Notes under the pieces: generated by a model | Seen by the model: the letters and a program-made list of their open reading frames with translations, nothing else | The model's database searches: none | What the model was told of the DNA's origin: nothing | In this document: one piece after another, positions 44,897-63,523 of the stretch | Layout: each line of letters starts with the position of its first letter | Numbering within the stretch: position 1 is the stretch's first letter | From: Cycloclasticus sp. 46_120_T64 | GTDB lineage: Bacteria; Pseudomonadota; Gammaproteobacteria; Methylococcales; Cycloclasticaceae | Assembly: GCA_002162695.1 (NCBI GenBank) | Contig: MAAM01000009.1 | Span: 62,001 to 126,000 of the forward strand | Direction of reading: 5' to 3' | Length of the DNA stretch: 64,000 nucleotides | Made by a program: the position numbers and the translations under genes

Positions 44897-45724
44897 GTGT
44901 TAAATAAAAAAATAAATACGGTTATTTTAGGGGCAGCACTTGCTGCTGTTGTATCGGCACCTGTGTTGGCGGCACCATCGGCTAAATTTGCGGCGACTTG
45001 GTCAACGGAGCCTGCATTGGCTTCGCTTGCAAATACCGGGGGGTATGTAGATACCGATACTGTTGTTACTGACTCACATACGGGTTACACAATAGCCACC
45101 ATTAAAGTGCCACAAGATAAAGAATTATTGGTGGGAGTTTCTGCTGAAATTGGTTTAATAACCGATACATCCATTAAAGGTAAAAATGGTGGTTCTGCTA
45201 AAGCGATTGCCGATGCTGAAGCATTCGTAACCTTATTTGCTGTGCCAGTTGATGGCGGAGATGGTATTGAAGCAGCGCCGGGTCAAGTGATGTTATCAAA
45301 GCGGGTTCAAGCTTTAAGCGCTACGTTAGGCGGGGTGATTCAAAGCTGTACCGATTCGCTTACTGTCGATACTGATGAAGATGGTGTTGCTGATGCCGGT
45401 GATGGAACTATTGTTATTGCCGATGAGTGTGATGTAACGGATGAAGAAATTGGTTTAATGCAAAATACTACGGCGGCACACCACTTTAACTTTGTACTGC
45501 CTAATATGGATCAAGGCGAATACGATATTAAAGCTGTTTTCACTACAGGTTCACGTGCTGAAGTCATTATTTGTGATTCTGAAGCCGAGTGTGACCTCTA
45601 TGATGCTGATGGAACCGTTGAGGGAATGGCTAACGCTGCAGCCGTTATCAATAAGACTATGGTAACTGTTCAGCAAGTACGTGCTGCAAAAGATGGTTTG
45701 AATTTAGTGACTATTACTGAGTAG
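44897..45724 (+). CDS. Secreted protein of unknown function with Asp-rich loop
   Basis: 275 residues from the GTG at 44897, with AAAGGA about ten bases upstream. A clear signal peptide (about 1-26, ending VLAA) is followed by a beta-rich acidic mature domain. Around residues 158-170 a DTDEDGVADAGDG stretch resembles calcium-binding DxDxDG loops. Cysteines are few (CTDS, ECDV, ICDSEAECD) and could form two disulfides. I do not recognise the family. It lies directly before the type II secretion operon, behind its own terminator, so it is a candidate substrate or surface protein; that is inference from position. Confidence 0.8.
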   Translation: MLNKKINTVILGAALAAVVSAPVLAAPSAKFAATWSTEPALASLANTGGYVDTDTVVTDSHTGYTIATIKVPQDKELLVGVSAEIGLITDTSIKGKNGGSAKAIADAEAFVTLFAVPVDGGDGIEAAPGQVMLSKRVQALSATLGGVIQSCTDSLTVDTDEDGVADAGDGTIVIADECDVTDEEIGLMQNTTAAHHFNFVLPNMDQGEYDIKAVFTTGSRAEVIICDSEAECDLYDADGTVEGMANAAAVINKTMVTVQQVRAAKDGLNLVTITE

Positions 45725-45972: not shown

Positions 45973-47652
45973 ATGGGTATTAAGGACTGTTATCAAGAGT
46001 TTTCGAAAGCACTGTTAGGCACAGGTTTACTGAGTGATATGGATATCGCAAAGGCTGAACGGTTGGCCACCAGCAATTCATCATTAAGCTTGCCACAGTT
46101 GCTGTTAGATTTAGGGATGTTGCCTGAAGCCGAGTTGGCTGATCAGTTGTCGGCGGTGAGCAAAAAACAACGTGTGACGGCTAAGGAATTGCCGGAAAAT
46201 GCGGTGTTGACCGATGTATCCCCCCGTTTTTTAAAAGAATTCTCTATTGCTGGCTTATATTCTAATGAAGACAGTGTTGCTGTTGCCGTCGTTGACCCGT
46301 TGGATAGCTATGCGGTGGATGCCTTGGCGTTAGCATTGAACAAACAAGTTGTTGTGCACGTGGGGGTACGTTCAGAGATTGAAAAGGCGGTAGCTCTGCA
46401 ACTAGAGGATGGCCGTGTCGATAAGGTAGAGGATTGGCAGGGTAATGATGATGCAGATATTGAACGCTTACGTGATATTGCTAGTGAGGCGCCGGTTATC
46501 CGTTTTGTTAATGCACTGTTTCAGCAGGCGGTGGAGGCTAGTGCTTCTGATATTCACATTGAATCTATAGACAAAAGCCTAAAACTACGGTTGCGTATTG
46601 ACGGTGTGTTGAAGGATGTCGACTTACCTATGAGCGGCACGGCGGTGGGTATTATTTCTCGCATTAAACTCTTAGCAAAGCTCAATATAGCCGAACGACG
46701 CTTACCCCAGGATGGCCGTATTCGTTATCAAGTGAATGCAAAAGAGTTTGATATGCGAGTTTCAACCAGCCCAACGATACATGGTGAAGGCGTGGTCATT
46801 CGTTTATTAGATCGCTCACAAATTGACCTTGATTTTGAAACCTTGGGTTTTGAAGGTCTGTCGCTCGAACGTTTTCTGGGTGTGTTGGCTCAACCGAATG
46901 GCATCATTTTGATCACTGGGCCAACCGGCAGCGGTAAAACGACTACGCTATACACGGCGTTAACACGTCTTAATACCTCAGAATCAAAAATCATTACAGT
47001 AGAAGACCCTGTTGAGTATGAGCTTGAGGGGATTAATCAAATTCAGGTTAAAGCTGATATTGATTTAACATTTTCTAATATTTTGCGATCCATCGTGCGT
47101 CAAGACCCGGATATTATTATGGTGGGTGAAATGCGTGATACTGAAACGGCTAATATTGCCGTTCAATCTGCATTAACAGGGCATTTAGTTTTAACGACAT
47201 TGCATACCAATGATGCTGCATCTGGGATGATACGCTTGCTTGATATGGGAGTGGATGACTTCTTGTTGGCCTCAACGGTGACTGGAATTTTGGCGCAACG
47301 TTTGATGAGGCGTTTGTGTGATGAGTGTAAACAAGCGTTTGACCCTGCTAAGGAATTAATCGATGAATTAGGTTTACAGCCAATTATTGAGGCGGAAGGT
47401 TCAAATTTTTATACTGCAACAGGCTGTGAATCTTGTGGGGAAACAGGTTATAAGGGGCGGATAGCCATGGTGGAGTTTTTGACTGTATCAGAAGGAATCA
47501 AAAAAGGGGTCATGCGTAAAGCGGATGCGGTTGAAATTCATGAATGTGCCTTATCGGAAGGTATGGAGTCTATGTTGAGTGATGGGCTTAAAAAAGCAGC
47601 GCGGGGCTTAACAGCACTTGAAGAAGTTGTTCGTTTAAGCAAAAAACAATAG
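45973..47652 (+). CDS. gspE: Type II secretion ATPase GspE
   Basis: 559 residues. The N1E-type domain is followed by the RecA-like ATPase with GPTGSGKTTTLYT (Walker A), the Asp box, IIMVGEMRDTETANIA (Walker B) and LTGHLVLTTLHTND (His box). The zinc-binding CDECKQAF...CESCGETGYKGR motif is intact. It powers pseudopilus assembly from the cytoplasmic face. It is the first gene of an eleven-gene operon in Xps order. AGGGGC precedes the ATG. Confidence 0.95.
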   Translation: MGIKDCYQEFSKALLGTGLLSDMDIAKAERLATSNSSLSLPQLLLDLGMLPEAELADQLSAVSKKQRVTAKELPENAVLTDVSPRFLKEFSIAGLYSNEDSVAVAVVDPLDSYAVDALALALNKQVVVHVGVRSEIEKAVALQLEDGRVDKVEDWQGNDDADIERLRDIASEAPVIRFVNALFQQAVEASASDIHIESIDKSLKLRLRIDGVLKDVDLPMSGTAVGIISRIKLLAKLNIAERRLPQDGRIRYQVNAKEFDMRVSTSPTIHGEGVVIRLLDRSQIDLDFETLGFEGLSLERFLGVLAQPNGIILITGPTGSGKTTTLYTALTRLNTSESKIITVEDPVEYELEGINQIQVKADIDLTFSNILRSIVRQDPDIIMVGEMRDTETANIAVQSALTGHLVLTTLHTNDAASGMIRLLDMGVDDFLLASTVTGILAQRLMRRLCDECKQAFDPAKELIDELGLQPIIEAEGSNFYTATGCESCGETGYKGRIAMVEFLTVSEGIKKGVMRKADAVEIHECALSEGMESMLSDGLKKAARGLTALEEVVRLSKKQ

Positions 47653-47662
47653 GTCTTAGCGT

Positions 47663-48874
47663 ATGCCAACTTTTTACTGTAAAGCGGTTCATTCAGATGG
47701 TGGGTTGATTGATGAGGTGCGGGAAGCGCCTAGCATGGAAACCATCGTGAGTGACTTGCAGGATCAAGGCTATGTGCCTATTCGTGTCGTGCCTGCGAAT
47801 ACGATGGCGGTACGGCTTTTTTCGAGTGACAAACAACATTTAAAGAATAAGCAGGTACTACTGTTTACCCAACAGCTTGCTACATTGCTGCAAGCTGGCT
47901 TGCCACTGGATCAGGCACTTAATATGTTGCTTGAACTAACAGAGTCGGTACCTGAAATTAACCGTGTTGTTGAACAGGTATTCAAACAAATAAAACAAGG
48001 TGTGGCGCTGTCGAATGCATTACAGCAGCAGGATTGTGGTTTTTCGCGTTTTTATATTGGAATTATTAAAGCGGGTGAGGCAAGTGGTGATATTGCGGGG
48101 TCTTTACTGCATTTGTCCGAATACTTGGAGCGTATCGATTCTTTACGTAGTACGGTTGTGTCGGCACTGGTGTATCCGGCCATTTTATTGTTTACCTCGG
48201 TTGCATCAATTGTGTTGTTAATGACCTTGGTATTGCCACAGTTTGCCGAGCTGTTTGCGGACAGTGGTAAGGAACTTCCGCTGCCAACAGCGGTTGTTAT
48301 GGGTATTTCGAATTTTTTACAGTCGTACTGGTGGGCATTGCTTGTTGTTATGATGGCTTGTGCGGCTGTGGTACGTCATATTATGAGCGTTCCCGAGTTA
48401 CGCTACCGGTGGGACCGGCGTTGTTTAGCCTTTCCGTTGGTTGGAGACCTCATTAAAAAAGTTGAAGTGACACGGTTTAGTTATACACTAGCGAGCTTAC
48501 TTGGCAATGGTTTGCCGCTACTTGAAGCGTTATCTATTGTTAAAAATACGCTGACTAACCGAGTCATGGTTGAGTTAATTGAGCAGGCTAGGGAAAACCT
48601 TAAACAAGGTAAGACAGTGTCATCGGCACTTGATAGTGATGATCAGTTTCCTAAAATGGCGGTACGAATGATCCGTTTAGGGGAGGAAACAGGCAGCTTG
48701 AAAACGGTGCTCGATAAATTGTCGAGCAGTTACGATCAAGAGGTGAAAGTTAGTTTGCAGCGCCTACTTTCTTTATTCGAACCGATTCTTATTTTGGTGT
48801 TGGGTATTGTTATATCAGGGATTATTTTTTCTGTTTTACTGGCGCTTGTCAGTATCAATGATTTTGCTTTTTAG
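47663..48874 (+). CDS. gspF: Type II secretion inner-membrane protein GspF
   Basis: 403 residues, with two repeated cytoplasmic domains and three membrane segments (about 170-190, 220-240, 375-395). The motifs LFTQQLATLLQAGLPLDQAL and FSYTLASLLGNGLPLLEAL are the paired GspF signatures. It is the platform protein that couples GspE to the growing pseudopilus. It lies ten bases after gspE. Confidence 0.95.
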   Translation: MPTFYCKAVHSDGGLIDEVREAPSMETIVSDLQDQGYVPIRVVPANTMAVRLFSSDKQHLKNKQVLLFTQQLATLLQAGLPLDQALNMLLELTESVPEINRVVEQVFKQIKQGVALSNALQQQDCGFSRFYIGIIKAGEASGDIAGSLLHLSEYLERIDSLRSTVVSALVYPAILLFTSVASIVLLMTLVLPQFAELFADSGKELPLPTAVVMGISNFLQSYWWALLVVMMACAAVVRHIMSVPELRYRWDRRCLAFPLVGDLIKKVEVTRFSYTLASLLGNGLPLLEALSIVKNTLTNRVMVELIEQARENLKQGKTVSSALDSDDQFPKMAVRMIRLGEETGSLKTVLDKLSSSYDQEVKVSLQRLLSLFEPILILVLGIVISGIIFSVLLALVSINDFAF

Positions 48875-48923
48875 TCGTTTAATAAAGCATTATTTTCACA
48901 CATGGGTCGTTATGGGTTGGATT

Positions 48924-49364
48924 ATGAAAAAGAGTAATAAAGTATTGGTTAATACAGGGCAAAAAGGTTTTACATTGATTGAAATATTGGTGGTGTTGGC
49001 AATTATTGGTTTGTTGGCCGGTTTAATTGGTCCGCAGGTTATGAAACAGTTTAGCTCATCAAAACCTAAGGCGGCACGTTTGCAAATAGAAGGTCTGGTG
49101 TCGGCATTAGAACTTTATAGATTGGATATTGGGCGTTACCCAAGTAGCGAACAGGGCTTATCAGCACTGATTCAATCACCCGATGGTGTTAATAATTGGA
49201 ACGGTCCTTATTTGCGTAAAAAAACAATTCCAACCGATCCTTGGAACGCGCCATATCAGTATGTCTATCCGGGGCTAAAATCAGACATTGACGTGTTTTC
49301 ATTAGGCGCTGATGGCCGCCCAAGTGGTACGGATGATAATGCGGATATTAATAGTTGGGAGTAG
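48924..49364 (+). CDS. gspG: Major pseudopilin GspG
   Basis: 146 residues from the ATG at 48924; an in-frame ATG at 48912 is an alternative. The leader MKKSNKVLVNTGQKG ends at the prepilin peptidase site G|FTLIEILVVLAII. RYPSSEQGL, DPWNAPYQYVYPG and FSLGADGRPSGTDDNADI form the C-terminal calcium-binding region of the major pseudopilin. No prepilin peptidase (gspO) is in the operon, so a pilD gene elsewhere must process it. Confidence 0.95.
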   Translation: MKKSNKVLVNTGQKGFTLIEILVVLAIIGLLAGLIGPQVMKQFSSSKPKAARLQIEGLVSALELYRLDIGRYPSSEQGLSALIQSPDGVNNWNGPYLRKKTIPTDPWNAPYQYVYPGLKSDIDVFSLGADGRPSGTDDNADINSWE

Positions 49365-49417
49365 TAGTGTGTTGAATTGGCTAACCGCGTAGAAAAATGT
49401 TGAACGTGGTTATATCA

Positions 49418-49858
49418 ATGGATAAAAAGAATGGCTTTACGTTGTTGGAAGTATTGCTGGTGTTGGCAATATCTTCAGTATTATTGGTGTTTGTCGCTCC
49501 CGATCTATATCGGACGATGAGTGGGATGTCACTGCCTAAGGCGACACAGGAGCTGGCAACCGCATTGCGCCATAGCCAAAGTCAGGCAATTAATGCGTCA
49601 CAACCTGTTTCATTAGTACTGGATGTAGAAAAGCGCAGTTATCAATTAAGCGGAAGTGAGAAGGTTTATCAATTACCGAGTGACTTAGATTTAACGCTTT
49701 TAACCGGGATGGGTCTCGTACAGGGAGCCAGTTCAGGAGCTATATATTTCTATTCAGACGGCTCCTCAAGTGGCGGGCGTATTAGCTTGCAGCAAGGAGA
49801 TCGCCAGCAACAAATCCATATAAATTGGCTGACAGGTGAGGTGGAAATTGGTGATTAA
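49418..49858 (+). CDS. gspH: Minor pseudopilin GspH
   Basis: 146 residues from the ATG at 49418; an ATG at 49397 would add seven residues. The very short leader MDKKNG precedes FTLLEVLLVLAI, followed by a beta-rich GspH domain. The sequence is otherwise poorly conserved, so the name rests on the prepilin motif, length and position between gspG and gspI. Confidence 0.9.
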   Translation: MDKKNGFTLLEVLLVLAISSVLLVFVAPDLYRTMSGMSLPKATQELATALRHSQSQAINASQPVSLVLDVEKRSYQLSGSEKVYQLPSDLDLTLLTGMGLVQGASSGAIYFYSDGSSSGGRISLQQGDRQQQIHINWLTGEVEIGD

Positions 49859-50273
49859 ATTTAGTCGTCGTCAATTACTCGGGTTTACCTTATTAGAAGT
49901 TTTGGTGGCCTTTGTCATTGCTGCTCTCGCTTTAACCCTGTTAATCCGTGCTTTTTCAGGTGGTTTACGTTTAGCTGCAACAGCTGAAGACTATGGCAAA
50001 GCAAGTGTATTAGCTCAGTCGCTGATAGCGCAAGTTGGTGTGGAATATGGTGTGAAAAACACACCGATACATGGCATGTTCGCCAATCGGTTTGATTGGG
50101 TGGTGAATATTGAACCCTACTCGATTGATATTGAACTGCCTGAAGACGAGGCAGTTGTGATGGTATTTAAATGCATGGTTAGTATTGTATGGGTTGAGGG
50201 GGTGAAAAAACGTCAATATGAATTGTCTAGTTTACGTTTGATGCCAAAGGAGAGTAACCATGCAGCTTGGTAA
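49851..50273 (+). CDS. gspI: Minor pseudopilin GspI
   Basis: 140 residues from the GTG at 49851, with GAGGTGG upstream; it overlaps gspH by eight bases. The prepilin site is G|FTLLEVLVAFVIAALAL. The C-terminal WVEGVKKRQYELSSLRL is typical of GspI. GspI nucleates the pseudopilus tip with GspJ and GspK. Confidence 0.92.
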   Translation: MIKFSRRQLLGFTLLEVLVAFVIAALALTLLIRAFSGGLRLAATAEDYGKASVLAQSLIAQVGVEYGVKNTPIHGMFANRFDWVVNIEPYSIDIELPEDEAVVMVFKCMVSIVWVEGVKKRQYELSSLRLMPKESNHAAW

Positions 50274-50925
50274 TAGAGTCAATAAGCTAGGCTTTACGCT
50301 CATCGAATTACTGGTTGGGCTAACATTATTTGGTGTTATTTCCATGGCCTTATACAGTGGCCTGAGTATGGCGATAAAAAGTACGGCGTCTGGAAACAAG
50401 CAGTCGCAAGAAGTGCGGCAAGTGATGGCACTGCAAACCTTGTTGAATACTAAGATTTATGCAGCAAAATCAGGTAAACAGTCAAATACCAAGGGAGAGG
50501 TAAGCTTTTATGGCGAGCCTCATGCGATTACATTTATTTCTGATATGCCTCAGTCTATTACACAGGGAGGTGATGGCGTTTATTCGATAAGCATTCAGAC
50601 AGGTAAGCCACAACCGCTGTTGACAATAGACTTGAAAAGGGAGGTTGATCTGGCTGAAGAGGCGTTGGGTGAGGCGGTGAATGAAACAGTTCGGCTGGCT
50701 AATATTAACGGCTTTTCAGTGAGTTATTTTGGGTTGCTGAATGCAGAAAATGAACGGGCTTGGCACCCAAGCTGGTTGAGGCAAAAACGCTTACCGTTGC
50801 TGGTTAAAATTAATATTACAACGGAATCAGGTTCCGTGTGGCCGCCCATTATTATTGCTTTACGAGAGTCAACAAATCAGGCCAACCTTTTTAATGTTAG
50901 TTTATCCGGTGCTGGGCGTGGGTGA
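50260..50925 (+). CDS. gspJ: Minor pseudopilin GspJ
   Basis: 221 residues. AAAGGAGAG lies seven bases before the ATG, and the gene overlaps gspI by 14 bases. The prepilin motif is G|FTLIELLVGLTLFGVI, followed by the larger beta-rich domain of GspJ. It belongs to the tip complex with GspI and GspK. Confidence 0.93.
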   Translation: MQLGNRVNKLGFTLIELLVGLTLFGVISMALYSGLSMAIKSTASGNKQSQEVRQVMALQTLLNTKIYAAKSGKQSNTKGEVSFYGEPHAITFISDMPQSITQGGDGVYSISIQTGKPQPLLTIDLKREVDLAEEALGEAVNETVRLANINGFSVSYFGLLNAENERAWHPSWLRQKRLPLLVKINITTESGSVWPPIIIALRESTNQANLFNVSLSGAGRG

Positions 50926-50926
50926 A

Positions 50927-51850
50927 GTGAACGCTCTTAAAATATCCAAAAACCAAACAGGGGTTGTACTGGTGTTTGTTTTGCTGATGCTGGTTCTTTT
51001 GTCGGTGATGGCGGGGAGCTTTAGCAACAGTATGCGTGGCGGAGCAAGCATCATACATAATAAAAAATCACAGTTACATAAGCAAGAGTTCGTTAATGCA
51101 GGGGTTGCGTATGCTGAATATATGATGACGCAGCCGGTTGGGAACCAACGGTGGCTGGCAACAGGTGTGGCTTATAAAATTAATTTTTCGAGTGAATTGA
51201 TCGAGATTAATATTTACGATGAGGCAGGGAAATTCAATATTAACCAGCTTGATAAGTTAATGCTTTTGGGGGTTTTAAAGTCGGTAGTTGCCGACACCTT
51301 GCAAGCGGGTCGCCTTACCGATAGTATCTTGGACTGGATAGATGCGGATGATGATGTGCGTGAGAACGGGGCAGAGCGAATGGTGGATAGTCATCAACAA
51401 GCTGCAGGCACTTCGAAAGATGAAGAGTACCGGCCTGCGAATCGTCCCTTTCGTCATTTGGCTGAATTAATGCTCGTTAAAGGGATGACCGATGCCATTT
51501 ATAAGAATTTGCGCCCGTTATTAACGGTTCAAGCCATAAAAAAACTTGATTTGGGTGTTGCAACAAAACAGGTGTTAACTCTATTATCAGAGGTATTTGG
51601 TGTTGGTGAATCGTGGGTTCAGCAAATTATATCGGGGCGCTTGGCTGTGGAAGATCAAGGCTTTATACCGTACGAAATGCGCGAATATGCTACTATCAAA
51701 ACCTCGCAAAGAGGTCGCTGGGTTGATGTGTCTATTACATTGAGCCGAGCAGGTAACAAGCGATCAGTGACAAATGTGTTAATGCGTAGGAACGCTGGGG
51801 GTGCTTTTCCTTTGTTTGTCGAGATTGATCGGCGTTTAGTTAGTGGATAA
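50927..51850 (+). CDS. gspK: Minor pseudopilin GspK
   Basis: 307 residues from the GTG at 50927, one base after the gspJ stop; in-frame codons farther upstream overlap gspJ. The leader ends KNQTG before VVLVFVLLMLVLL and, as usual for GspK, the Glu at +5 is missing. The large insertion domain has LDWIDADDDVRENGAE and YRPANRPFRHLAELMLVKGM, both typical. It caps the pseudopilus. Confidence 0.94.
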   Translation: MNALKISKNQTGVVLVFVLLMLVLLSVMAGSFSNSMRGGASIIHNKKSQLHKQEFVNAGVAYAEYMMTQPVGNQRWLATGVAYKINFSSELIEINIYDEAGKFNINQLDKLMLLGVLKSVVADTLQAGRLTDSILDWIDADDDVRENGAERMVDSHQQAAGTSKDEEYRPANRPFRHLAELMLVKGMTDAIYKNLRPLLTVQAIKKLDLGVATKQVLTLLSEVFGVGESWVQQIISGRLAVEDQGFIPYEMREYATIKTSQRGRWVDVSITLSRAGNKRSVTNVLMRRNAGGAFPLFVEIDRRLVSG

Positions 51851-51877
51851 ATAAACAAATAAAAACAAGGAAGGTTA

Positions 51878-52960
51878 ATGCAAGGGCTTATTAGTCAACC
51901 GATAAAACAATTTTTTGCTTGGTGGGGTAAAGAGTTGTTTGCGCTGCTTCCAGAGGTTTGGCGAGGTAAGCTTCAGGTTGCCGATAATATTCTTTTGTTA
52001 CGGCATTGTCCTGATGGAATAAGGGTTATTTGGATTAATGACTCACAGCGAATGGACTTCGGTGTTTTTGCGGTAAATGATGCGGGGCGTACTGCTTGGC
52101 AAGAGCGGGTTGCAAAATATAGCCGGGTATCTAAGGCAAGTCGTATTTTAGTGCTCTCTCCGGCGCAGTGTTTTAACCGGCGTATTATGTTACCTAAGCA
52201 GGCAGCAGCAAACCTACATCAGGTGATGGGTTTCGAAATGGATCGTTACACGCCCATTACGGCGAAACACGCCTACTTCGATATAGTCAGTACGAATGCG
52301 CCTGTACAAGACGGTCAATTCGAAGCCTTTTTTGTTGTAACGCCAAAGACATTACTGGAGCCGATGCTTGAGCAGTGTGGTTTTTTTGATTTGTCACCCA
52401 ACACGGTCAGTCACTCAGCAACACTAGCATTGCCGCTGGATGCTGCAAATATTAATGTGTTACCTGACGATATGCGGCCGGCGGTCAATAAAAAGGAACG
52501 TGTATTGACGACGGCTTTAGTGGTGGTCTTATTGCTTGGAGTGTCCGTTGCTTTAACCTACCCAACATGGGCGATAAAACATGAAGTGACTGATCTGCAA
52601 GCTAGAATTGCTGCGATTAAGGAAGATGTGAAATTAGTTGGCAAGATGCGAACAAGCATTGAAAGCACTGAGGCACAAATTAAAAGTTTACTGGATAAAA
52701 AAACAAGCCGACCTTATGCGGTTGATATTTTGTTAGAACTGACAAAGCGCTTACCCGCAGATAGTTGGTTAACCAACCTACGTTTAACCGGTAGTCATCT
52801 GCAAATACAAGGCTACTCAGAGAATGCAACGGGGTTAATACAATTATTAGAGGATTCGCCGCTATTCTCAAATACTCGATTTACCTCTCCTCTTGCCAGT
52901 AATAAAGCACCCCAGCAGGCTTTTAAGATAGGCATCGACTTAGTTAGGGTGATGCCATGA
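51878..52960 (+). CDS. gspL: Type II secretion protein GspL
   Basis: 360 residues. The cytoplasmic actin-like (PilM-like) domain covers about 1-205 (MLPKQAAANLHQVMGFEMDRYTPI). A membrane helix lies at about 212-230, then a coiled segment and a periplasmic PilN/ferredoxin-like domain (LLELTKRLPADSWLTNLRL). It recruits GspE and pairs with GspM. Its stop overlaps the gspM start by four bases. Confidence 0.92.
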   Translation: MQGLISQPIKQFFAWWGKELFALLPEVWRGKLQVADNILLLRHCPDGIRVIWINDSQRMDFGVFAVNDAGRTAWQERVAKYSRVSKASRILVLSPAQCFNRRIMLPKQAAANLHQVMGFEMDRYTPITAKHAYFDIVSTNAPVQDGQFEAFFVVTPKTLLEPMLEQCGFFDLSPNTVSHSATLALPLDAANINVLPDDMRPAVNKKERVLTTALVVVLLLGVSVALTYPTWAIKHEVTDLQARIAAIKEDVKLVGKMRTSIESTEAQIKSLLDKKTSRPYAVDILLELTKRLPADSWLTNLRLTGSHLQIQGYSENATGLIQLLEDSPLFSNTRFTSPLASNKAPQQAFKIGIDLVRVMP

Positions 52961-53544
52961 TGATGGTTGATAATTTAACGAATAAGCAGCAACGCTATTT
53001 AGCAATTGAGTTGCTTATTCTGCTGGTATTACTGGTGTTATGGTTGTTTGTTTCACCCTTATGGAACATGCATGTATCGCACGCCGAGCAAGCTTTGGAT
53101 TTACGGTTTCAACTAGCCAAGTATGAGCAAGCGATTAACAGTAAAACGCTCATTGCTAGCAATAAAGCCTCTCTACAGGAATCACTTAAAGACGCAACGT
53201 TGATTCATGAAAATATCGCTCATGGGGTTGTCGCGGCGAAGGTACAAAATACCATTCGTGAAATGGTTGAGAAATCACAGGGCAGTCTGCTGAGCACCCA
53301 GGTGTTACCGGAAAAGAAAGAACAACAGTTTACCCGGCTTGCGATTAATGTACGGCTAACAGGCGACGACTTGGTATTACATCAATTGCTTTTTGAGCTT
53401 GAAATGGCGCGCCCAATATTGACGATTGAAAAGCTAACGGTCTCTTCAAGACGGCGCTCTCGTCGGCAGAATACTCATGTGAACGGTGTACATAATATAA
53501 CCTTGGAAATAGCCAGTTATGTCATACGGGGTGCGACAGAATGA
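52957..53544 (+). CDS. gspM: Type II secretion protein GspM
   Basis: 195 residues. A short cytoplasmic tail is followed by a strongly hydrophobic helix (about 17-36), a coiled coil and a small ferredoxin-like periplasmic domain (TRLAINVRLTGDDLVLHQLLF). The sequence is weakly conserved in the family, but length, topology and position after gspL support it. It overlaps gspL and the next gene by four bases each. Confidence 0.88.
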   Translation: MMMVDNLTNKQQRYLAIELLILLVLLVLWLFVSPLWNMHVSHAEQALDLRFQLAKYEQAINSKTLIASNKASLQESLKDATLIHENIAHGVVAAKVQNTIREMVEKSQGSLLSTQVLPEKKEQQFTRLAINVRLTGDDLVLHQLLFELEMARPILTIEKLTVSSRRRSRRQNTHVNGVHNITLEIASYVIRGATE

Positions 53545-54122
53545 TATTCAACACACATTTAATTCGACAACTTACATTAAACCTATGTGGTGTTTTTTTG
53601 CTCATTCTTATTATTGAATGGCTCATTATAAATGTAGGCAGTTCCGAGCCATCCCTCTTATCGCCGCTGCCTAATTTTTCGCAAGAAACCGAACAGTTAT
53701 TATTAGAATTCCCAGCGTTGCAAGTAGAGGACTACGCCGCTTTAGCGGAAGCTCCGCTGTTTGTTGAAGGTAGAATCCCCATCGTAAGTGACGGTAATAA
53801 TGTCGCCGAGGGTATTGAAAAGCAGTCGAGTCATGCTTCGTTACAAATGCGCTTAATGGGTGTAACCCTTTCGGTAGAGGGTTCTTTAGCGTTGGTCGTA
53901 GATTCTAACGGTACGTATTATCGTCTATTCGTAGACGATGAGGCGTTAGGTTGGACGTTGACATCGGTTGAACAAAAGAAAGCTACGTTTAATAGAGGTG
54001 GAAAAGTCATTACTCTGACTTTGGAAAAGCACAAAGTTGGAAAGCTCAAAAAATCCTACCGTTCACGACAGCTACGTAGTGCAAAGCCACTGTCTCCAGC
54101 AATATTAAAAAATAACAATTGA
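53541..54122 (+). CDS. gspN: GspC-like clamp protein of Xps type (GspN)
   Basis: 193 residues. A single membrane helix (about 11-30) is followed by a periplasmic homology-region domain: APLFVEGRIPI, then LQMRLMGVTLSVEGSLALVVDSNG, ending in a basic tail. This is the layout of the inner-membrane protein that links the platform to the secretin. There is no PDZ domain and no separate gspC. In the Xanthomonas xps cluster the gene at this place is XpsN, which takes the GspC role. The call rests on gene order and topology. Confidence 0.8.
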   Translation: MIFNTHLIRQLTLNLCGVFLLILIIEWLIINVGSSEPSLLSPLPNFSQETEQLLLEFPALQVEDYAALAEAPLFVEGRIPIVSDGNNVAEGIEKQSSHASLQMRLMGVTLSVEGSLALVVDSNGTYYRLFVDDEALGWTLTSVEQKKATFNRGGKVITLTLEKHKVGKLKKSYRSRQLRSAKPLSPAILKNNN

Positions 54123-54138
54123 ATCAGGGAAGTATGAC

Positions 54139-56301
54139 ATGAGAAAAGCCGTATCTACGCTTAATAAAACTATACTGCTTGGAAGTGTACTTTTACTTCA
54201 GGGTTGTGAAACATTAGGCCCTAACTTATCGGAAAAGCGGATGATTACCGGCTCGTTTCCGACAGAAACGGCTTCAACGGTACAAAAAGAAGATCGGGCT
54301 TTAACACGGATAGCTCCAGAAAAAAACGTACCCAGACAAAAGGCTGAGATTTACCCTGCAGATAGTCAATTCATCGTCCCTAGTAAACCTATTAAGAGAG
54401 GCTTGAATTCAGCGACTAGTGGCAGCTATACGCTTAATTTTAGTAGTGTTGATATCTCCGAAGTTGTGAAAGTGATTCTGGGGGATACGCTAAAGAAAAA
54501 CTTTACTATTAGCGCCAGTGTGGGTGGCAATGTTTCCATGCAGACGAGTCAACCGCTAACAACTCAAGAGCTACTGCCGACATTGCAAATGTTATTAGCA
54601 ATGAATAACGCGATTTTGATAGAAGAAGCCGGTTTATATCGAGTGGAGCCTGTTAATACAGCATTGGTCGCCGGAAATGTTCCATTAACCTTGGGAGGCG
54701 ATACGCTAAACGGCCATCAAATAAACGTCATTCCTCTGCAGTATATGGGCGCTCAGGATATGAAGAAGATCCTAGAGCCCGTACTGCCTAAGAACGCAGT
54801 CGTTCAAATAGATATTAATAGGAATCTCTTATTGGTAGCGGGTAATCCAACAGACCTGTTCAATACGAAAGAGTTAATTAGCTTATTTGACGTGGATGTT
54901 TTGCAAGGTAAGTCAGTTGGTTTGTTTCCGTTAACGTATGTGGAGGCAGAGACCGTACAAAAAGAATTGATGGGGCTTTTTGCCGCCGAGGACAATAATG
55001 CTCTGGCGGGCATGTTGCAAATGCTGCCGATAGAGCGAATGAATGCATTAATGGTGATTACATCCCAAGTAAAGTATTTGCAGCGTATTAAGCAGTGGCT
55101 TGCTCGTTTAGATCGCGCAGGGCCACGAGGGCAGGCGGGGCATATCCATGTTTACTCGGTACAAAATGTAGATGCAGTTGATTTAGCGGGAATTTTAGAG
55201 CAAATTTACCTACCTCAGGAAGGGGCTAGCCGTAAAAGAAAAACATCGGCGATAGCTCCTGGCTTAGAACCGGTAAAACTTAGTAGTAAGGCAACAGTAG
55301 CCACTAAATTAGCACGCACTAAAATGGGTGCATCGGTTTCAGGAAAAGTCGTTAGCAGCTCAACCACGGGGGCTGTTCGAATTATTGCCGATGAAATGAA
55401 TAATTCACTGGTGATTGTAGCGAGTGCACAAGACTATGAGCCGATTAAAAAAGTCATTAAACAATTAGATGTTGTGCCGTTGCAGGTTTTGGTAGACGCA
55501 ACAATAATTGAAGTGAGTTTAACGGATGAATTACATTACGGATTACAGTGGTATTTTAATAATAAATCAGGCAGTTATCGAGGATCAGCGAGAGGCGGGG
55601 ATTCTAATTTCAATGCGGCAGGTTTGGGTGGCTTTTCGTATTCAATCGTTAATAGTGCCGATATTGTGCGAGCAGAATTAAATGCTTTAGCAAACGACTC
55701 AAAAATTAATGTCGTTTCTTCTCCGTCACTGATGGTGCTGAATAATCATGAGGCGATCATTAAAGTAGGTGACCAAGTGCCCATTAGGACATCGGAATCG
55801 GCCAATACCAGTGGTGTCGTAGGTGATACCGCTATCATTACCAGTACGATTGATATGCGAGATTCAGGCGTGACCTTAAAGGTTAAACCTAGAGTAAATG
55901 CAGGGGGCTTAGTCATCATGGACGTAGAGCAGAATGTAGATGGCGTTTCACGCACTGAAAGCTCAGAGATAGACTCACCCACCATTCAACAGCGACAAAT
56001 ACAAACTTCCGTTGCGGTAAAAAATGGAGAAACAATTATTTTGGGTGGACTGATTACGGAACAGCGAGAGCTAGGACGAAGCGGTATACCTGTTTTAAGC
56101 CGGTTGCCACTAATAGGTGGTTTATTTGGCAAAACAGATAAGGTGCTAGACCGCACTGAACTCGTTGTATTGTTAACCCCTAGAGTCGTGAAGAACGAGT
56201 ATGATGCTCGGCTTGTCACGCGTGAATTTAAGCATAAGTTGACAGGTATATACACTGATCTAAAAAATGAAGAGAGCTTAAACTCTCGTGTAGAAGACTG
56301 A
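54139..56301 (+). CDS. gspD: Type II secretion secretin GspD, lipoprotein form
   Basis: 720 residues. The lipobox LLLQGC puts the lipidated Cys at about 23, as in XpsD. The N0 domain (YTLNFSSVDISEVVKVILGD) is followed by N1-N3 repeats and the secretin core with VPIRTSESA, RDSGVTLKVKPRV and the ending GRSGIPVLSRLPLIGGLFG. The N3 domain holds a Ser/Thr/Lys-rich insertion (about 370-410). It forms the outer-membrane channel. Being a lipoprotein, it could reach the outer membrane without a separate pilotin, as inferred for Xps. Confidence 0.95.
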   Translation: MRKAVSTLNKTILLGSVLLLQGCETLGPNLSEKRMITGSFPTETASTVQKEDRALTRIAPEKNVPRQKAEIYPADSQFIVPSKPIKRGLNSATSGSYTLNFSSVDISEVVKVILGDTLKKNFTISASVGGNVSMQTSQPLTTQELLPTLQMLLAMNNAILIEEAGLYRVEPVNTALVAGNVPLTLGGDTLNGHQINVIPLQYMGAQDMKKILEPVLPKNAVVQIDINRNLLLVAGNPTDLFNTKELISLFDVDVLQGKSVGLFPLTYVEAETVQKELMGLFAAEDNNALAGMLQMLPIERMNALMVITSQVKYLQRIKQWLARLDRAGPRGQAGHIHVYSVQNVDAVDLAGILEQIYLPQEGASRKRKTSAIAPGLEPVKLSSKATVATKLARTKMGASVSGKVVSSSTTGAVRIIADEMNNSLVIVASAQDYEPIKKVIKQLDVVPLQVLVDATIIEVSLTDELHYGLQWYFNNKSGSYRGSARGGDSNFNAAGLGGFSYSIVNSADIVRAELNALANDSKINVVSSPSLMVLNNHEAIIKVGDQVPIRTSESANTSGVVGDTAIITSTIDMRDSGVTLKVKPRVNAGGLVIMDVEQNVDGVSRTESSEIDSPTIQQRQIQTSVAVKNGETIILGGLITEQRELGRSGIPVLSRLPLIGGLFGKTDKVLDRTELVVLLTPRVVKNEYDARLVTREFKHKLTGIYTDLKNEESLNSRVED

Positions 56302-56653: not shown

Positions 56654-59035
56654 ATGAGAGTATTTGTTGTAGCCCTAATAACAGCCGTTACATCAATGAG
56701 TGCGCAAGCCGCTCCCGATGCATCCAAAATGTTTGGCGGCGCTGTCCCCTTCACGATGGATCAGATACCAAGCAGTCGTCTGAAGTCTGATCTTCAATCC
56801 TTACCGGCTCCTGCTAGAGAAAGAGGGGTCGCGTGGTTAAATAGTTTCAGCTTTCCGGCTCATGATGTTGAGCACCTTCGCGTTGATGGTCGTGGGGCGG
56901 TTTTTTATGAAGACACCCAGCTTCCTGACGAGATTAGCCAAGAAGCTTTAGAAGCTGATCCAACATTGGAAGGTATTAACCCAGTGGATGCATTTAAGTT
57001 GCACAGTAAACCCGGAGCTGCCAATGTTGTTTACGTTAACTTTAAAGGCTCTACAATTGCGAATACAGCTTGGAACTATGGTGCTGCGGCAAGTTATCAA
57101 GCAAAACCTTTTAATAAGGATGCTGACCCGAGTACATTCTCGGAGGCGGAAAGAAAAGATATAGGTGAAATTTGGCACCGGATTGCAGAAGATTTTAGTG
57201 CTTTTGATGTCGATGTAACGACCGAAGCGCCCGCTGCATTTGGGCCTAAAGTCGGGCATATTCTCATCACCAGTAATTCAACGGTCAGCGGTGGTGCGAT
57301 GCCTCATTATAATGCTGGGGGTGTAGCCTATGTGGGTGTTTGGGGTTACTCAAATTATGAATATTACCAACCAGCCTTAGTTTATTACGATCAATTAGCA
57401 TCATCGCCGACGTATATTTCAGAAGCTGCCTCGCATGAACTTGGACATAATTTAGCGTTATCACATGATGGTACAAGTACTGTGGGCTACTACACGGGAC
57501 ATGGTGATGGCTTATTAAGTTCGTGGGCTCCAATTATGGGAGTTGGTTATTATCAAAATGTAACCCAATGGAGCAAAGGTGAATATAACGATGCAAGTAA
57601 TACACAAGATGATTTAGCAATCATTAGTGCTCGTTTATCGTATCGCTCGGATGACCATGCAAATAACCATGCTTCGTCAACGGCCTTGATCGTTGATTCA
57701 TCTGGCCATATTGCGAGTAGTAACCCTGAGTTTGATCCACTCAACGATCGCCCTGACAATAAAGGGGTTATTGAAAATAGTGCGGATACTGATGTTTTCT
57801 TTTTTGACACGGCTGCCGGTGATATTAATATTTCAATAACACCCGCATGGGCGGCCTATACACGCTCTACTCGACGTGGGGCAAACCTGGATATTAAAGC
57901 CACCCTTACGGATGGTGCAGGCCTTACTATTGTTGATGATTACTTAAATGATACAGAAGCGTTAATTACGGCCACTGTTCCTGCAGGCCGATATTATCTT
58001 GAAATCACAGGTGTTGGTAATAGCGCTATAAACTACTCAGCTTATGGCAGTTTAGGTGAGTATTTTATTGTCGGTCAAGTTGTGGCTTCAAGTGCCGATA
58101 CGACGGTACCGAACCCTGATCCAATGTCATGGGTGAGTGCACCGGTAAGTACCAGTCGAACAAGCATCGAAATGACGGCAACCGTGGCTTCTGATGACTC
58201 TGGTTTTGTTGAGTATCAATTTGTTTGTACGACGGGTGGGCAGGGCTGTGTTGCTAGTGCATGGCAAGCTGACACCGTGTATGTTGCAAACGGTTTGGAA
58301 TTTGGTACAGATTATAGTTATCAAGTGAAAGCACGGGATAGTGTCGGTAATGAAACGGCATTATCAGCTGCGGCATCGGCTACGACATGGAGTAATGCAC
58401 AACCTGTCGGCGTTACGGATTCAGCAGAGGGCGATAAGGATGCAACCATTCTTATCGATGTGTTAGCAAATGATAGTGACTCGGATGGCGATACCTTGCA
58501 GGTTTATAGTGTTTCTGTGGCAGCGGGTAACGGCGATGCTGTCATCAGTGGTAGCAAAATCCTTTATACGCCGGATACAGGTTTTGTAGGTAACGATACC
58601 TTTAGCTATGTTACAACAGACGGTTTTGGTGGTTACTCGAGCAACACTGAGGTGACGATTGATGTGTTTGATGCTAATTCAGCGCCTACTGCAAACCCTG
58701 ATAGTGCAGAAGTGCTCTTAGTGAGCAGCGTGGTTATTGATGTGCTAGCTAATGATACCGACCCTGAAGGAACGAGCTTAAACATTGTATCAGTGACAAA
58801 TGGAGCAAAAGGGACTGCTACTAATAATGGTGATGGGACGATTACTTACACGGCAGCCAATAAAAAACGTGGTGGTGATGTCTTTAGCTATACCGTATCG
58901 GATGGCGAACTGACCTCTACCACGACGGTGTCGGTATCAATCGTAAAATCACTTTCAACTGACGGAGGTACTGATGGAGGTACTGGCGATACGGGTGGTG
59001 GTAGTGGTAAATGTCACCCTAAAAAAGGATGCTGA
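56654..59035 (+). CDS. Large secreted metzincin-like metalloprotease, multi-domain
   Basis: 793 residues. The signal peptide (about 1-19, ending SAQA) leads to a pro-region. The catalytic domain has H261-E-L-G-H265-N-L-A-L-S-H271-D (HExxHxxxxxH zinc motif, with Ala where metzincins usually have Gly) and a likely Met-turn in APIMGVG about 25 residues later. Next come a PPC-type beta domain (about 370-455), a fibronectin III-like domain (about 490-580) and two cadherin/VCBS-like domains, each starting DVLANDxDxxGxxL. A Gly/Thr-Asp linker ends in KCHPKKGC. It follows the secretion operon and is a strong candidate for its cargo. The substrate is unknown, and the tail may be an anchor or sorting tag. 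Confidence 0.88.
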   Translation: MRVFVVALITAVTSMSAQAAPDASKMFGGAVPFTMDQIPSSRLKSDLQSLPAPARERGVAWLNSFSFPAHDVEHLRVDGRGAVFYEDTQLPDEISQEALEADPTLEGINPVDAFKLHSKPGAANVVYVNFKGSTIANTAWNYGAAASYQAKPFNKDADPSTFSEAERKDIGEIWHRIAEDFSAFDVDVTTEAPAAFGPKVGHILITSNSTVSGGAMPHYNAGGVAYVGVWGYSNYEYYQPALVYYDQLASSPTYISEAASHELGHNLALSHDGTSTVGYYTGHGDGLLSSWAPIMGVGYYQNVTQWSKGEYNDASNTQDDLAIISARLSYRSDDHANNHASSTALIVDSSGHIASSNPEFDPLNDRPDNKGVIENSADTDVFFFDTAAGDINISITPAWAAYTRSTRRGANLDIKATLTDGAGLTIVDDYLNDTEALITATVPAGRYYLEITGVGNSAINYSAYGSLGEYFIVGQVVASSADTTVPNPDPMSWVSAPVSTSRTSIEMTATVASDDSGFVEYQFVCTTGGQGCVASAWQADTVYVANGLEFGTDYSYQVKARDSVGNETALSAAASATTWSNAQPVGVTDSAEGDKDATILIDVLANDSDSDGDTLQVYSVSVAAGNGDAVISGSKILYTPDTGFVGNDTFSYVTTDGFGGYSSNTEVTIDVFDANSAPTANPDSAEVLLVSSVVIDVLANDTDPEGTSLNIVSVTNGAKGTATNNGDGTITYTAANKKRGGDVFSYTVSDGELTSTTTVSVSIVKSLSTDGGTDGGTGDTGGGSGKCHPKKGC

Positions 59036-60953: not shown

Positions 60954-62234
60954 ATGATTAAACGAGTTTTTATTAAGTCTGGCTTATTGTTTGCCAGTCT
61001 AAGCCTTTGTGCGGGCGTGTCGCATAGCGCAGGTGTCAATAAACTAGAGCGCTGCTCGACTTATACGTTCAATAAGACATTGAGCGAATGGCTAGTCGCC
61101 AATGTCACGCAGCACCCCACGGTGCTAGCCGCTAAGGCAGCGGTTGAGGCCAGTGAGTTTCAGCAATTAGCCGCTGCTAAGGCCTTATATAACCCAGAAT
61201 TAGCGCTGGCGACAGAATCGGTTGATGAGGTAACGACCACCAGCCTAGGGATTAGCCAAACTATTGATTGGGGAGATCGGCGAGGGGCTAATATTAAATT
61301 TGCCAGCGCGCAATTGCGCGGCAAGCAAAGCCAATTGAGCTTAAGCCAGCAGCAGCTTAGCTTAAGCTTGTTAACGGCGTTGTCTAAACAACATACCTCT
61401 CAAGCATTAATAGCCTTAGCTACCCAGCGCAGTGAGTTGATGCAGCGTTTTGTTAATCTAGCAAGGCAGCGTTTTTCACACGGCGACTTGACCCGGGTAG
61501 AGGTTGATTTAGCCAAATTATCTTATGCACAGGCACGTTTTAGCCAAACGTCTGCGCAAGCGGATTTTATGCGTGCGCAGCAGCAACTGATTGCCCTAAC
61601 CGGCGTGGCGTTAGACGATTGGCCATTAATGCCGACAAACTACCCCGAACCGGTGGCAGCCGGCGCGGATAAGGAGGCGTGGGTTCAGCGCTTAGCGACA
61701 ATGCAGTTGGCATTAGCGACGATCGAATCGGCTCAGGCGCTTATTAAACAACGGCAGGCGCAAGCGGTGGTTCAACCAACACTGGCCTTGCACGCGGGTA
61801 AAGAGGAATCTGATCATATTGTGGGTTTGACCCTGTCACTGCCTTTGCCGCTTAGAAACGATTTTAGTGCCGAAGTGGGTGCAGCTAATGCGGTGTTGAT
61901 TCAAGCAAAGAGAGAGGCGCATGCGCAGTTCCGTGAATTAAGTAGCCGTTATGAAATATCGCTAGGGTCTTACCGTTTGAGCCGAGATGCATGGTTGTTT
62001 TGGCAGCAATTCGCTGCAGACAGTTTGGCGGAACACATCCGTTTATTGGAGCGCTTATGGCAGGCTGGGGAATTAAGCAGCAGTGATTATGTAATCCAGC
62101 TTGGCCAAGCCTTACAGACCAAAGCGTCGGCGATACAGCAGCGCGGGAAATTATGGTTGGACTGGGCGCAGTGGCAACATGCCAGCGGGCATATAGAACA
62201 ATGCCTATTAAAAGATATCGAGGGTGCAAAATGA
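60954..62234 (+). CDS. czcC: CzcC-type outer-membrane efflux channel (TolC family)
   Basis: 426 residues. A signal peptide (about 1-26) is followed by two long helical repeats (LATQRSELMQRFVNLARQRF and LAEHIRLLERLWQAGEL) and beta segments such as LGISQTIDWGDRRGA, the usual outer-membrane factor layout. It is the exit duct of a heavy-metal RND pump. Its stop overlaps the czcB start by four bases. Confidence 0.9.
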   Translation: MIKRVFIKSGLLFASLSLCAGVSHSAGVNKLERCSTYTFNKTLSEWLVANVTQHPTVLAAKAAVEASEFQQLAAAKALYNPELALATESVDEVTTTSLGISQTIDWGDRRGANIKFASAQLRGKQSQLSLSQQQLSLSLLTALSKQHTSQALIALATQRSELMQRFVNLARQRFSHGDLTRVEVDLAKLSYAQARFSQTSAQADFMRAQQQLIALTGVALDDWPLMPTNYPEPVAAGADKEAWVQRLATMQLALATIESAQALIKQRQAQAVVQPTLALHAGKEESDHIVGLTLSLPLPLRNDFSAEVGAANAVLIQAKREAHAQFRELSSRYEISLGSYRLSRDAWLFWQQFAADSLAEHIRLLERLWQAGELSSSDYVIQLGQALQTKASAIQQRGKLWLDWAQWQHASGHIEQCLLKDIEGAK

Positions 62235-63523
62235 ACGTAATACAACGAATGACAGTAGCGATATTAGCAATGACAGTTAATGCGATGAATATGGCGTATG
62301 CCGTTGAAATAACCGTGTTGCACGAACAGCACGAACAACACGAACAACACGAACAGCACGAACAGCACGAACAGCACGAACAGCACGAACAACACGAAGA
62401 ACACGAAGAACACGAAGAACACGAAGAACACGAAGAACACGAAGAACACGAAGAACACGAAGAACACGAAGAACACGAAGAACACGAAGAACACGAAGAA
62501 CACGAAGAACAAACGGTCAAGCTTTCTACGCAGCAGTTAGCGATGGCGGGCATTGTGGTGGCAGAGGTACGGCCGCAACGCCTATCGGCAGAAATTAGCG
62601 CGCCGGGTGAGGTGGTACAAAATGCCTATGCAACGAGCAAGGTGACCCCACGTATTCCCGCACAAGTGCTTGAACGCCACGCGCGTTTAGGCGATAAGGT
62701 GCAATTAGCCGAGCCGTTGGTTAGTTTGACTAGCGTAGAAATGGCGGCGGCACAGGGGGATTTGCTGGTCGCTACACGGGAGTGGCAACGGGTGAGTAAG
62801 CTAGGGCAGCCAGTAGTGTCGGAGAAGCGCTTTGTGCAAGCACGCGTGAGTTATCAGCAGGCTAAATCACGTGTGTCAGCCTATGGTATGAGTGAGCAGC
62901 AACTGGCGGAATTCTTACGTAGCCGTGACCCCGCCAAGGCGAATGGTCGTTTTCAGTTACTGGCAACGCAACCGGGCACGGTGCTGGCTGATCGGTTTAT
63001 TGTTGGTGAATTGATTCAACCCGGAACCACCTTATATACGATCAGTAATGAATCGCTGCTGTGGGTGGAAGCCAAACTGACGCCATTAGAGGCGCAGTGG
63101 GTTCGAGTGGGCAGCGTCGCTACCGTTCGTACATCGGGGCGCACGTTTACCGGCAGGGTCGTACAGGTGCATCACGCGCTGGATAGAGCAACACGTACCC
63201 TTGGGGTGCGGATTGAACTGGCCAACATCGATGATCAATTACACGCGGGCTTATTCGTACAGGTGAGTATTCATAGTATTAAGTCTACGCACGGCTTGTT
63301 TGTACCGTTGAATGCGGTATTACGCAGTGCGGATGGTGATTGGCAGGTTTTTGTAGAAAAACAAGCGGGTGAGTTTGCGCCGGTTGAGGTGGCATTATTG
63401 CAAACCATTGGCAATATGGCGCAAATAAGCGGGGTCGAGGCGGGCACTCGGCTAGTCACCAACGGGGCTTTTTTTGTTCAGTCGGAGTTGGCAAAAGCCG
63501 GTTTCGAAGTCCATAACCATTAA
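62231..63523 (+). CDS. czcB: CzcB-type periplasmic adaptor with long His-Glu repeat
   Basis: 430 residues from the ATG at 62231, with GAGGG seven bases upstream. A signal peptide (about 1-24, ending MAYA) is followed at residues 31-93 by 21 tandem triplets, eight HEQ then thirteen HEE, so His and acidic side chains fill the mature N-terminus. The adaptor follows: barrel-sandwich (VVQNAYATSKVTPRIPAQVLERHARLGDKV), hairpin helices and beta-barrel (GTRLVTNGAFFVQSEL). The protein links CzcA to CzcC. Some CzcB-type adaptors have His-rich N-terminal metal sites, but a pure triplet array this long is unusual. Metal buffering or delivery is inferred. Confidence 0.92.
   Translation: MNVIQRMTVAILAMTVNAMNMAYAVEITVLHEQHEQHEQHEQHEQHEQHEQHEQHEEHEEHEEHEEHEEHEEHEEHEEHEEHEEHEEHEEHEEQTVKLSTQQLAMAGIVVAEVRPQRLSAEISAPGEVVQNAYATSKVTPRIPAQVLERHARLGDKVQLAEPLVSLTSVEMAAAQGDLLVATREWQRVSKLGQPVVSEKRFVQARVSYQQAKSRVSAYGMSEQQLAEFLRSRDPAKANGRFQLLATQPGTVLADRFIVGELIQPGTTLYTISNESLLWVEAKLTPLEAQWVRVGSVATVRTSGRTFTGRVVQVHHALDRATRTLGVRIELANIDDQLHAGLFVQVSIHSIKSTHGLFVPLNAVLRSADGDWQVFVEKQAGEFAPVEVALLQTIGNMAQISGVEAGTRLVTNGAFFVQSELAKAGFEVHNH
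62321..62509 (+). repeat. 9-bp coding minisatellite, 21 copies
   Basis: Units of CACGAACAG/CACGAACAA (first eight) and CACGAAGAA (last thirteen, all identical) run without interruption in frame within czcB. The homogeneous second block suggests recent expansion by slippage. Because each unit is a multiple of three, copy-number change alters length without shifting the frame. All three minus-strand frames are also open, giving spurious ORFs. Confidence 0.97.

Follow-up and report, generated by a model that had tools for sequence, protein, structure and literature searches.

The window analysed here, a stretch of 64,000 nucleotides from contig MAAM01000009.1 of Cycloclasticus sp. 46_120_T64, encodes on its forward strand a protease of 793 amino acids (56654..59035, ATG start). 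From the N- to the C-terminus, it is composed of a putative signal peptide, a metzincin-like catalytic domain, a β-rich region, an FN3-like domain, two Big_9 domains, a glycine linker and a cysteine tail. The likely signal peptide (MRVFVVALITAVTSMSAQA / AP; 56654..56713) was assigned by eye. A zinc-binding motif of the metzincin type, HELGHNLALSHDG, is located at 57434..57472, and HExxGHxxxxxHD was invariant across alignment A2. The protein was matched by Pfam Reprolysin_3 with E 5.6e-6 and 27.3 bits (cut-off 22.4), and the score of Reprolysin_5 stayed below its cut-off. With a zinc motif of the HExxHxxGxxHD type and this profile match, the protein can be assigned by sequence to the Reprolysin-like M12 metzincins. 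The FN3-like region contains the cysteine pair FVCTTGGQGC (58226..58249), according to the cysteine census the only one in the mature protein besides that of the tail. It is followed by two tandem Ig-like domains of the Big_9 or tandem-95 repeat type (58433..58936), seen in the AF2 model and by Pfam (Big_9, E 1.8e-31, two stretches). The AF2 model of the mature chain was of modest confidence (mean pLDDT 69, pTM 0.43, 11 sequences in the input). In a comparison with the PDB, its best 50 matches were Ig-type chains, glycosidases and other β-proteins, and the catalytic fold was not recovered; phmmer against the PDB returned only acutolysin-C with E 0.13.

The Ig-like domains are followed by a linker of about 20 Gly, Asp, Thr and Ser residues (58949..59008) and by the tail KCHPKKGC (59009..59032). 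The C-terminal end reads ...SIVKSLSTDGGTDGGTGDTGGGSGKCHPKKGC-stop, with the last cysteine as C-terminal residue and the stop codon at 59033-59035. A sequence-only reading of the window had reported this Gly-rich linker with its KCHPKKGC end, and the translation confirmed both position and description. It had also described the tail as free of a membrane helix, and the sequence indeed has no hydrophobic stretch after the linker. In the AF2 model, the fold of the mature chain is well defined as far as residue 745, with the last Ig domain complete before the linker; residues 749-774, comprising linker and tail, have a pLDDT <50 and are thus predicted to be disordered.

Directly upstream of the protease, an operon for type II secretion is located on the same strand (45973..56301); the same reading had named it as a neighbour of the gene. 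The genes for gspE, F, G, K and the GspD-type secretin are supported by Pfam matches, while gspH, I, J and M were labelled by position and eye; ORF 51878 matched PilN and ORF 53541 matched nothing. Judged from its position and its domain make-up, the protease is most likely exported by type II secretion. Just before gspE, an ORF of 275 amino acids with a likely signal peptide and no Pfam match (44897-45724) may encode another exported protein that belongs to the operon. Downstream of the protease, a gene for an efflux adaptor of the CusB/HlyD type (62153-63523, Pfam HlyD_D23) adjoins the genes for an outer-membrane efflux protein and an FTR1-type iron permease. Near the N-terminus of this adaptor, a 9-bp tandem repeat CACGAAGAA in 21 copies (62321-62511) encodes a long HEQ/HEE run that may be a length-variable metal-binding stretch.

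A first scan for homologues used six query peptides, one of them the tail itself, so its count of tails (nine of 11 loci ending in KCHPK[KR]GC) is biased. Since these query patterns included the tail, the search was repeated using just the catalytic part. In the order to which the window belongs, 32 of 151 genomes contained a homologue. The hits comprised 48 places, of which 30 were taken as loci; three complete ones among the other 18 (L223, L225 and L226) were inspected as well and had no tail. Within this order, the tail was found in the window's genome and in a genome of the same genus (G384), there as RCHPKRGC, and a profile of the tail, run against these 151 genomes, returned only G000 and G384 at E <1e-5. 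Homologues were present in 15 of the 116 genomes from the family of Marinobacterium nitratireducens; the tail or a clear variant of it was seen in 11 of these and absent from four. One further tailed protease (G1102) was obtained by a pattern search. After removal of duplicates, 21 distinct tailed proteases from several gammaproteobacterial lineages were counted, i.e. the one in the window and 20 others, with the pattern C[HN][PG][KR][KR]x(1,2)C. Viral contigs gave no match to the strict tail pattern. In the 93 plasmid records that were hit, the match was confined to the catalytic or to the Ig part, with <60% identity, and none covered 80% of the query.

A tree was calculated from 54 catalytic domains after L047, which is cut by a contig end, had been dropped. 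All 21 tailed proteins fell into one clade of 27 (support 87/95) together with six tail-less members, L020-L025. The tail state changed four times on this tree compared to 16.8 times with shuffled labels; hence, the random absence among homologues that had been named as a refutation was not observed. The protease resembles other Reprolysin-like bacterial metzincins of the M12 type with Ig-like domains in combining the catalytic domain with Big_9 or PKD accessory domains, but most of the sampled homologues (33 of the 54 tree rows) have no tail. Among the six tail-less clade members, the chain ends shortly behind the catalytic region in L022, L024 and L025, behind Big_9 in L020 and behind FN3-like domains in L021 and L023. 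None of the six showed a trace of a degraded tail, and three-frame translation past the stop of L020, L021 and L023 gave no convincing remnant. An SPQK-like stretch after the stop of L020 coincides with a terminator-like inverted repeat. The sequences are compatible with a tail gained once and lost a few times as well as with a few gains.

Most of the scanned clade members carry Big_9 once or twice, whereas L109, L114 and L116 carry PKD, with the tail unchanged. It is directly preceded by Big_9 in the window, L007, L108 and L219 and by PKD and FN3-like domains in L109, L114 and L116. Since the middle domains were shuffled within the clade while the terminal tail stayed the same, the tail is an independent unit. 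Two further observations were made on the homologues. L119-L122 form a sister group within the Marinobacterium family; these proteases have 978-1040 amino acids and another cysteine pair, TCSGC, near the C-terminus. An orthologue in a metagenome-assembled genome (L009:5107-7496) is split into two ORFs by a frameshift, which is either real or an assembly error.

The second cysteine of the tail was the final residue wherever a stop was visible (20 of 20 copies). The 21st copy, L116 (G580), has no visible stop, and its gene runs off at the contig end into a sequence that we take to be sequencing adapter. CHPKKGC was the most frequent variant (12 of 21), followed by CHPKRGC (five) and by CNPKKGC, CNPRKGSC, CNPRKTSC and CNGKKKSC with one copy each. 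The spacing was C-x5-C in 18 tails and C-x6-C in three. Within the former, positions 1, 3, 4, 6 and 7 were invariant, position 2 was H or N and position 5 K or R; the first cysteine was preceded by K in 16 of 20 copies counted. For comparison, 116 pairs of tailed proteins with a catalytic identity <60% (mean 57%) were considered. Tails of equal length (83 pairs) had a mean identity of 91%, a value inflated by the definition of the protein set by the motif, and the 12 preceding residues had one of 40%. The Gly linker thus diverges between homologues while the tail persists. The tail codons differ synonymously between lineages, so the tail is evidently kept by protein-level selection, which these sequences indicate to be strong.

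A chance ending of the chain was rejected on account of the clustering in the tree, the conservation of the tail and a count of ORF endings. Of the 1,233 different ORFs with 150 or more amino acids in the collected loci, 22 ended in C-x(5,6)-C, and the tail of this protease accounted for 20 of them, although this rate is a local yardstick rather than a genome-wide one, as most loci had been chosen for the protease. The exact letters of the tail had no match in the literature text searched, and titles and the beginnings of abstracts likewise showed no such tail. On the basis of the sequences compared, the two-cysteine tail is a real, uncatalogued and strongly conserved feature of one protease clade.

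The position of the gene next to the type II operon could suggest that the tail is an export signal read by this machinery. The gene directly follows the operon in the window and adjoins one divergently in G530 (L130), but these were the only two of 20 tailed neighbourhoods (flanks of 0.2 to 9 kb) with type II genes nearby. In G384, an intact tailed gene is directly preceded by a C-terminal gspD stub of 55 residues with 80% identity (L123:8645-8809), and no other match to the operon of the window was found within about 98 kb of this gene. With the stub alone at this place, the operon was apparently lost or moved there. As close tail-less homologues also share the same catalytic domain, an export signal is quite unlikely.

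The sequence-only reading had considered the tail to be a sorting signal common to several exported proteins and served by a processing gene of its own, and the Gly-rich linker with its basic end does recall GlyGly-CTERM. Profile and pattern searches of the window's own genome, however, found a single copy of the tail, namely that of the protease. In the 11 genomes of the first scan, KCHPK[KR]GC occurred once in each of the nine tailed ones and not in the two planctomycetes. The tail pattern was furthermore applied in 1,024 genome scans (390 + 295 + 339, partly overlapping sets), in a form that misses the NPRK and CNG variants and Arg as first basic residue. It gave 50 places, five of which were this protease (G520, G521, G522, G1102 and G000). 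The other 45 were out of frame, ended elsewhere or lay in ORFs <100 amino acids, the longest non-protease ORF ending in the motif having 69, so that the pattern as searched revealed no second tailed protein of at least 100 amino acids. An all-versus-all comparison of ORFs from the 20 tailed neighbourhoods showed no neighbour or processing gene shared across lineages; the largest non-protease clusters comprised six loci and were lineage-bound or, by eye, a common signalling-type domain. With one copy per genome, no other tailed protein, no hydrophobic segment and no shared neighbour, the idea of a many-protein signal fails within the genomes and the motif searched, and we regard it as extremely improbable. 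A tag acting on a single protein would be compatible with the sequences.

The NCBIfam CTERM models matched neither the whole protein nor the tail. The model of a myxosortase-dependent phytase reached a meaningless 11 bits in the Gly linker compared to a cut-off of 440. As the membrane helix is missing as well, none of the known CTERM tags fits. GlyGly-CTERM of the rhombosortase system (Vibrio cholerae VesB) is C-terminal after a Gly/Ser-rich stretch, has basic residues and occurs on an exported protease with ties to type II secretion. In contrast to this combination of Gly/Ser motif, hydrophobic segment and basic residues, the present tail has no hydrophobic segment, ends in Cys and was found on one protein per genome examined. 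The Pro-Glu-Pro motif, helix and basic end of PEP-CTERM are absent from the sequence. MYXO-CTERM, the tag of the myxosortase system, shares a conserved cysteine in a C-terminal tag, but combines it with a helix and an Arg-rich cytoplasmic end, whereas the protease sequence stops at the second of two cysteines with fixed spacing. MYXO-CTERM processing has been proposed to leave a lipidated cysteine at the end of the protein, which would then be delivered to the surface via type II secretion (PMC11980579). By analogy, the tail would resemble such a cleaved end product, encoded without a membrane helix, and its last cysteine would be attached covalently, by lipid or mixed disulfide, and keep the protease on the cell surface. 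The strictly final position of this cysteine in the complete copies agrees with such an anchor. However, no transmembrane helix would present it to a membrane enzyme, the fixed spacing of two cysteines suggests pairing, each genome examined has a single substrate, and the neighbourhoods have no enzyme in common. A covalent anchor is therefore rather unlikely. Unlikely too, though deserving some credit, is a helix-free anchoring tag, in which a terminal CxxxxxC on the Gly tether would be recognised after export and fixed to the outer surface via the terminal cysteine or a basic ring; a type II exoprotease would in this way be displayed on the surface by a minimal signal that needs no sortase-like enzyme.

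Pairing of the cysteines is also suggested, indirectly, by their number. Behind the signal region, 19 of 20 tailed proteins counted had four cysteines and one had six, never an odd number. They lie close together two by two, with one such pair in the tail and the other in the FN3-like or PKD part, and tail-less L020 keeps exactly the internal pair. These even counts and the strict co-presence of both tail cysteines fit two local disulfide loops. The small disulfide loop that had been proposed earlier is compatible with two cysteines flanking basic residues and Pro; the loop itself is something that we infer. Such a ring could simply be a cap that shields the chain end from carboxypeptidases or the protease itself. 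It would close on the terminal residue, and the exposed Gly linker belongs to a protease, but a plain cap would not require K-x-[HN]-P-[KR]-[KR]-G to be kept and tail-less L020, L021 and L023 likewise end in exposed Ig or FN3 domains, uncapped. This leaves the cap with a small probability. A latch of the zymogen, in which a thiolate or His of the tail blocks the catalytic zinc as a cysteine switch, or a metal site in the tail is very unlikely. The enzyme is a zinc protease with a single other cysteine pair, and bacterial pappalysins do use a cysteine switch, but theirs is located in the N-terminal pro-segment (PMC6949598). Moreover, His is replaced by Asn in four of 21 tails, the AF2 model leaves the tail undocked (at low confidence), and the clade enzymes that end after the catalytic region have neither Cys nor tail.

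As leading, though still tentative, explanation, we propose that the tail works as a basic hook, closed by a disulfide and mounted on a flexible tether, by which the protease would stay attached to a polymer or surface after export. The Gly-rich tether would carry a ring of 7-8 residues, closed between the two tail cysteines and exposing two or three Lys/Arg. After Sec export, the ring would be oxidised in the periplasm, and the folded protease would then cross the outer membrane, most likely via type II secretion. Outside, the basic ring would keep the enzyme in place by binding something anionic, for instance LPS, exopolysaccharide, DNA or a polymeric substrate. This proposal builds on the conservation of the tail, its clade-bound inheritance, its persistence across domain swaps, the even cysteine counts and the predicted disorder of the linker. 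A C-terminal disulfide loop can act as an adhesive contact in type IV pilins such as Pseudomonas aeruginosa PilA (PMC5581551), which illustrates the principle, not its use by the protease. The pilin loop spans 12-31 residues within a folded domain, whereas the tail has 5-6 residues between its cysteines on a disordered tether, and the likeness is one of working rather than kinship. Against the hook, it has to be considered that the ring is deduced, that a Lys/Arg run could serve other ends and that paired cysteines could also bind metal. In addition, six of the 27 clade proteins manage without a tail, and H/N as well as, in most copies, P and G are kept more tightly than simple charge binding needs.

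The tail was found in one protease family, and no surrounding system was found. As a protective cap only, it would still be a neat uncatalogued feature of this family. If it retains the enzyme, few natural retention tags known from Gram-negative bacteria would be as short as these eight residues, which are kept while the adjacent Ig-like domains swap. If true, this would be one way for an exoprotease to escape loss to sea water.
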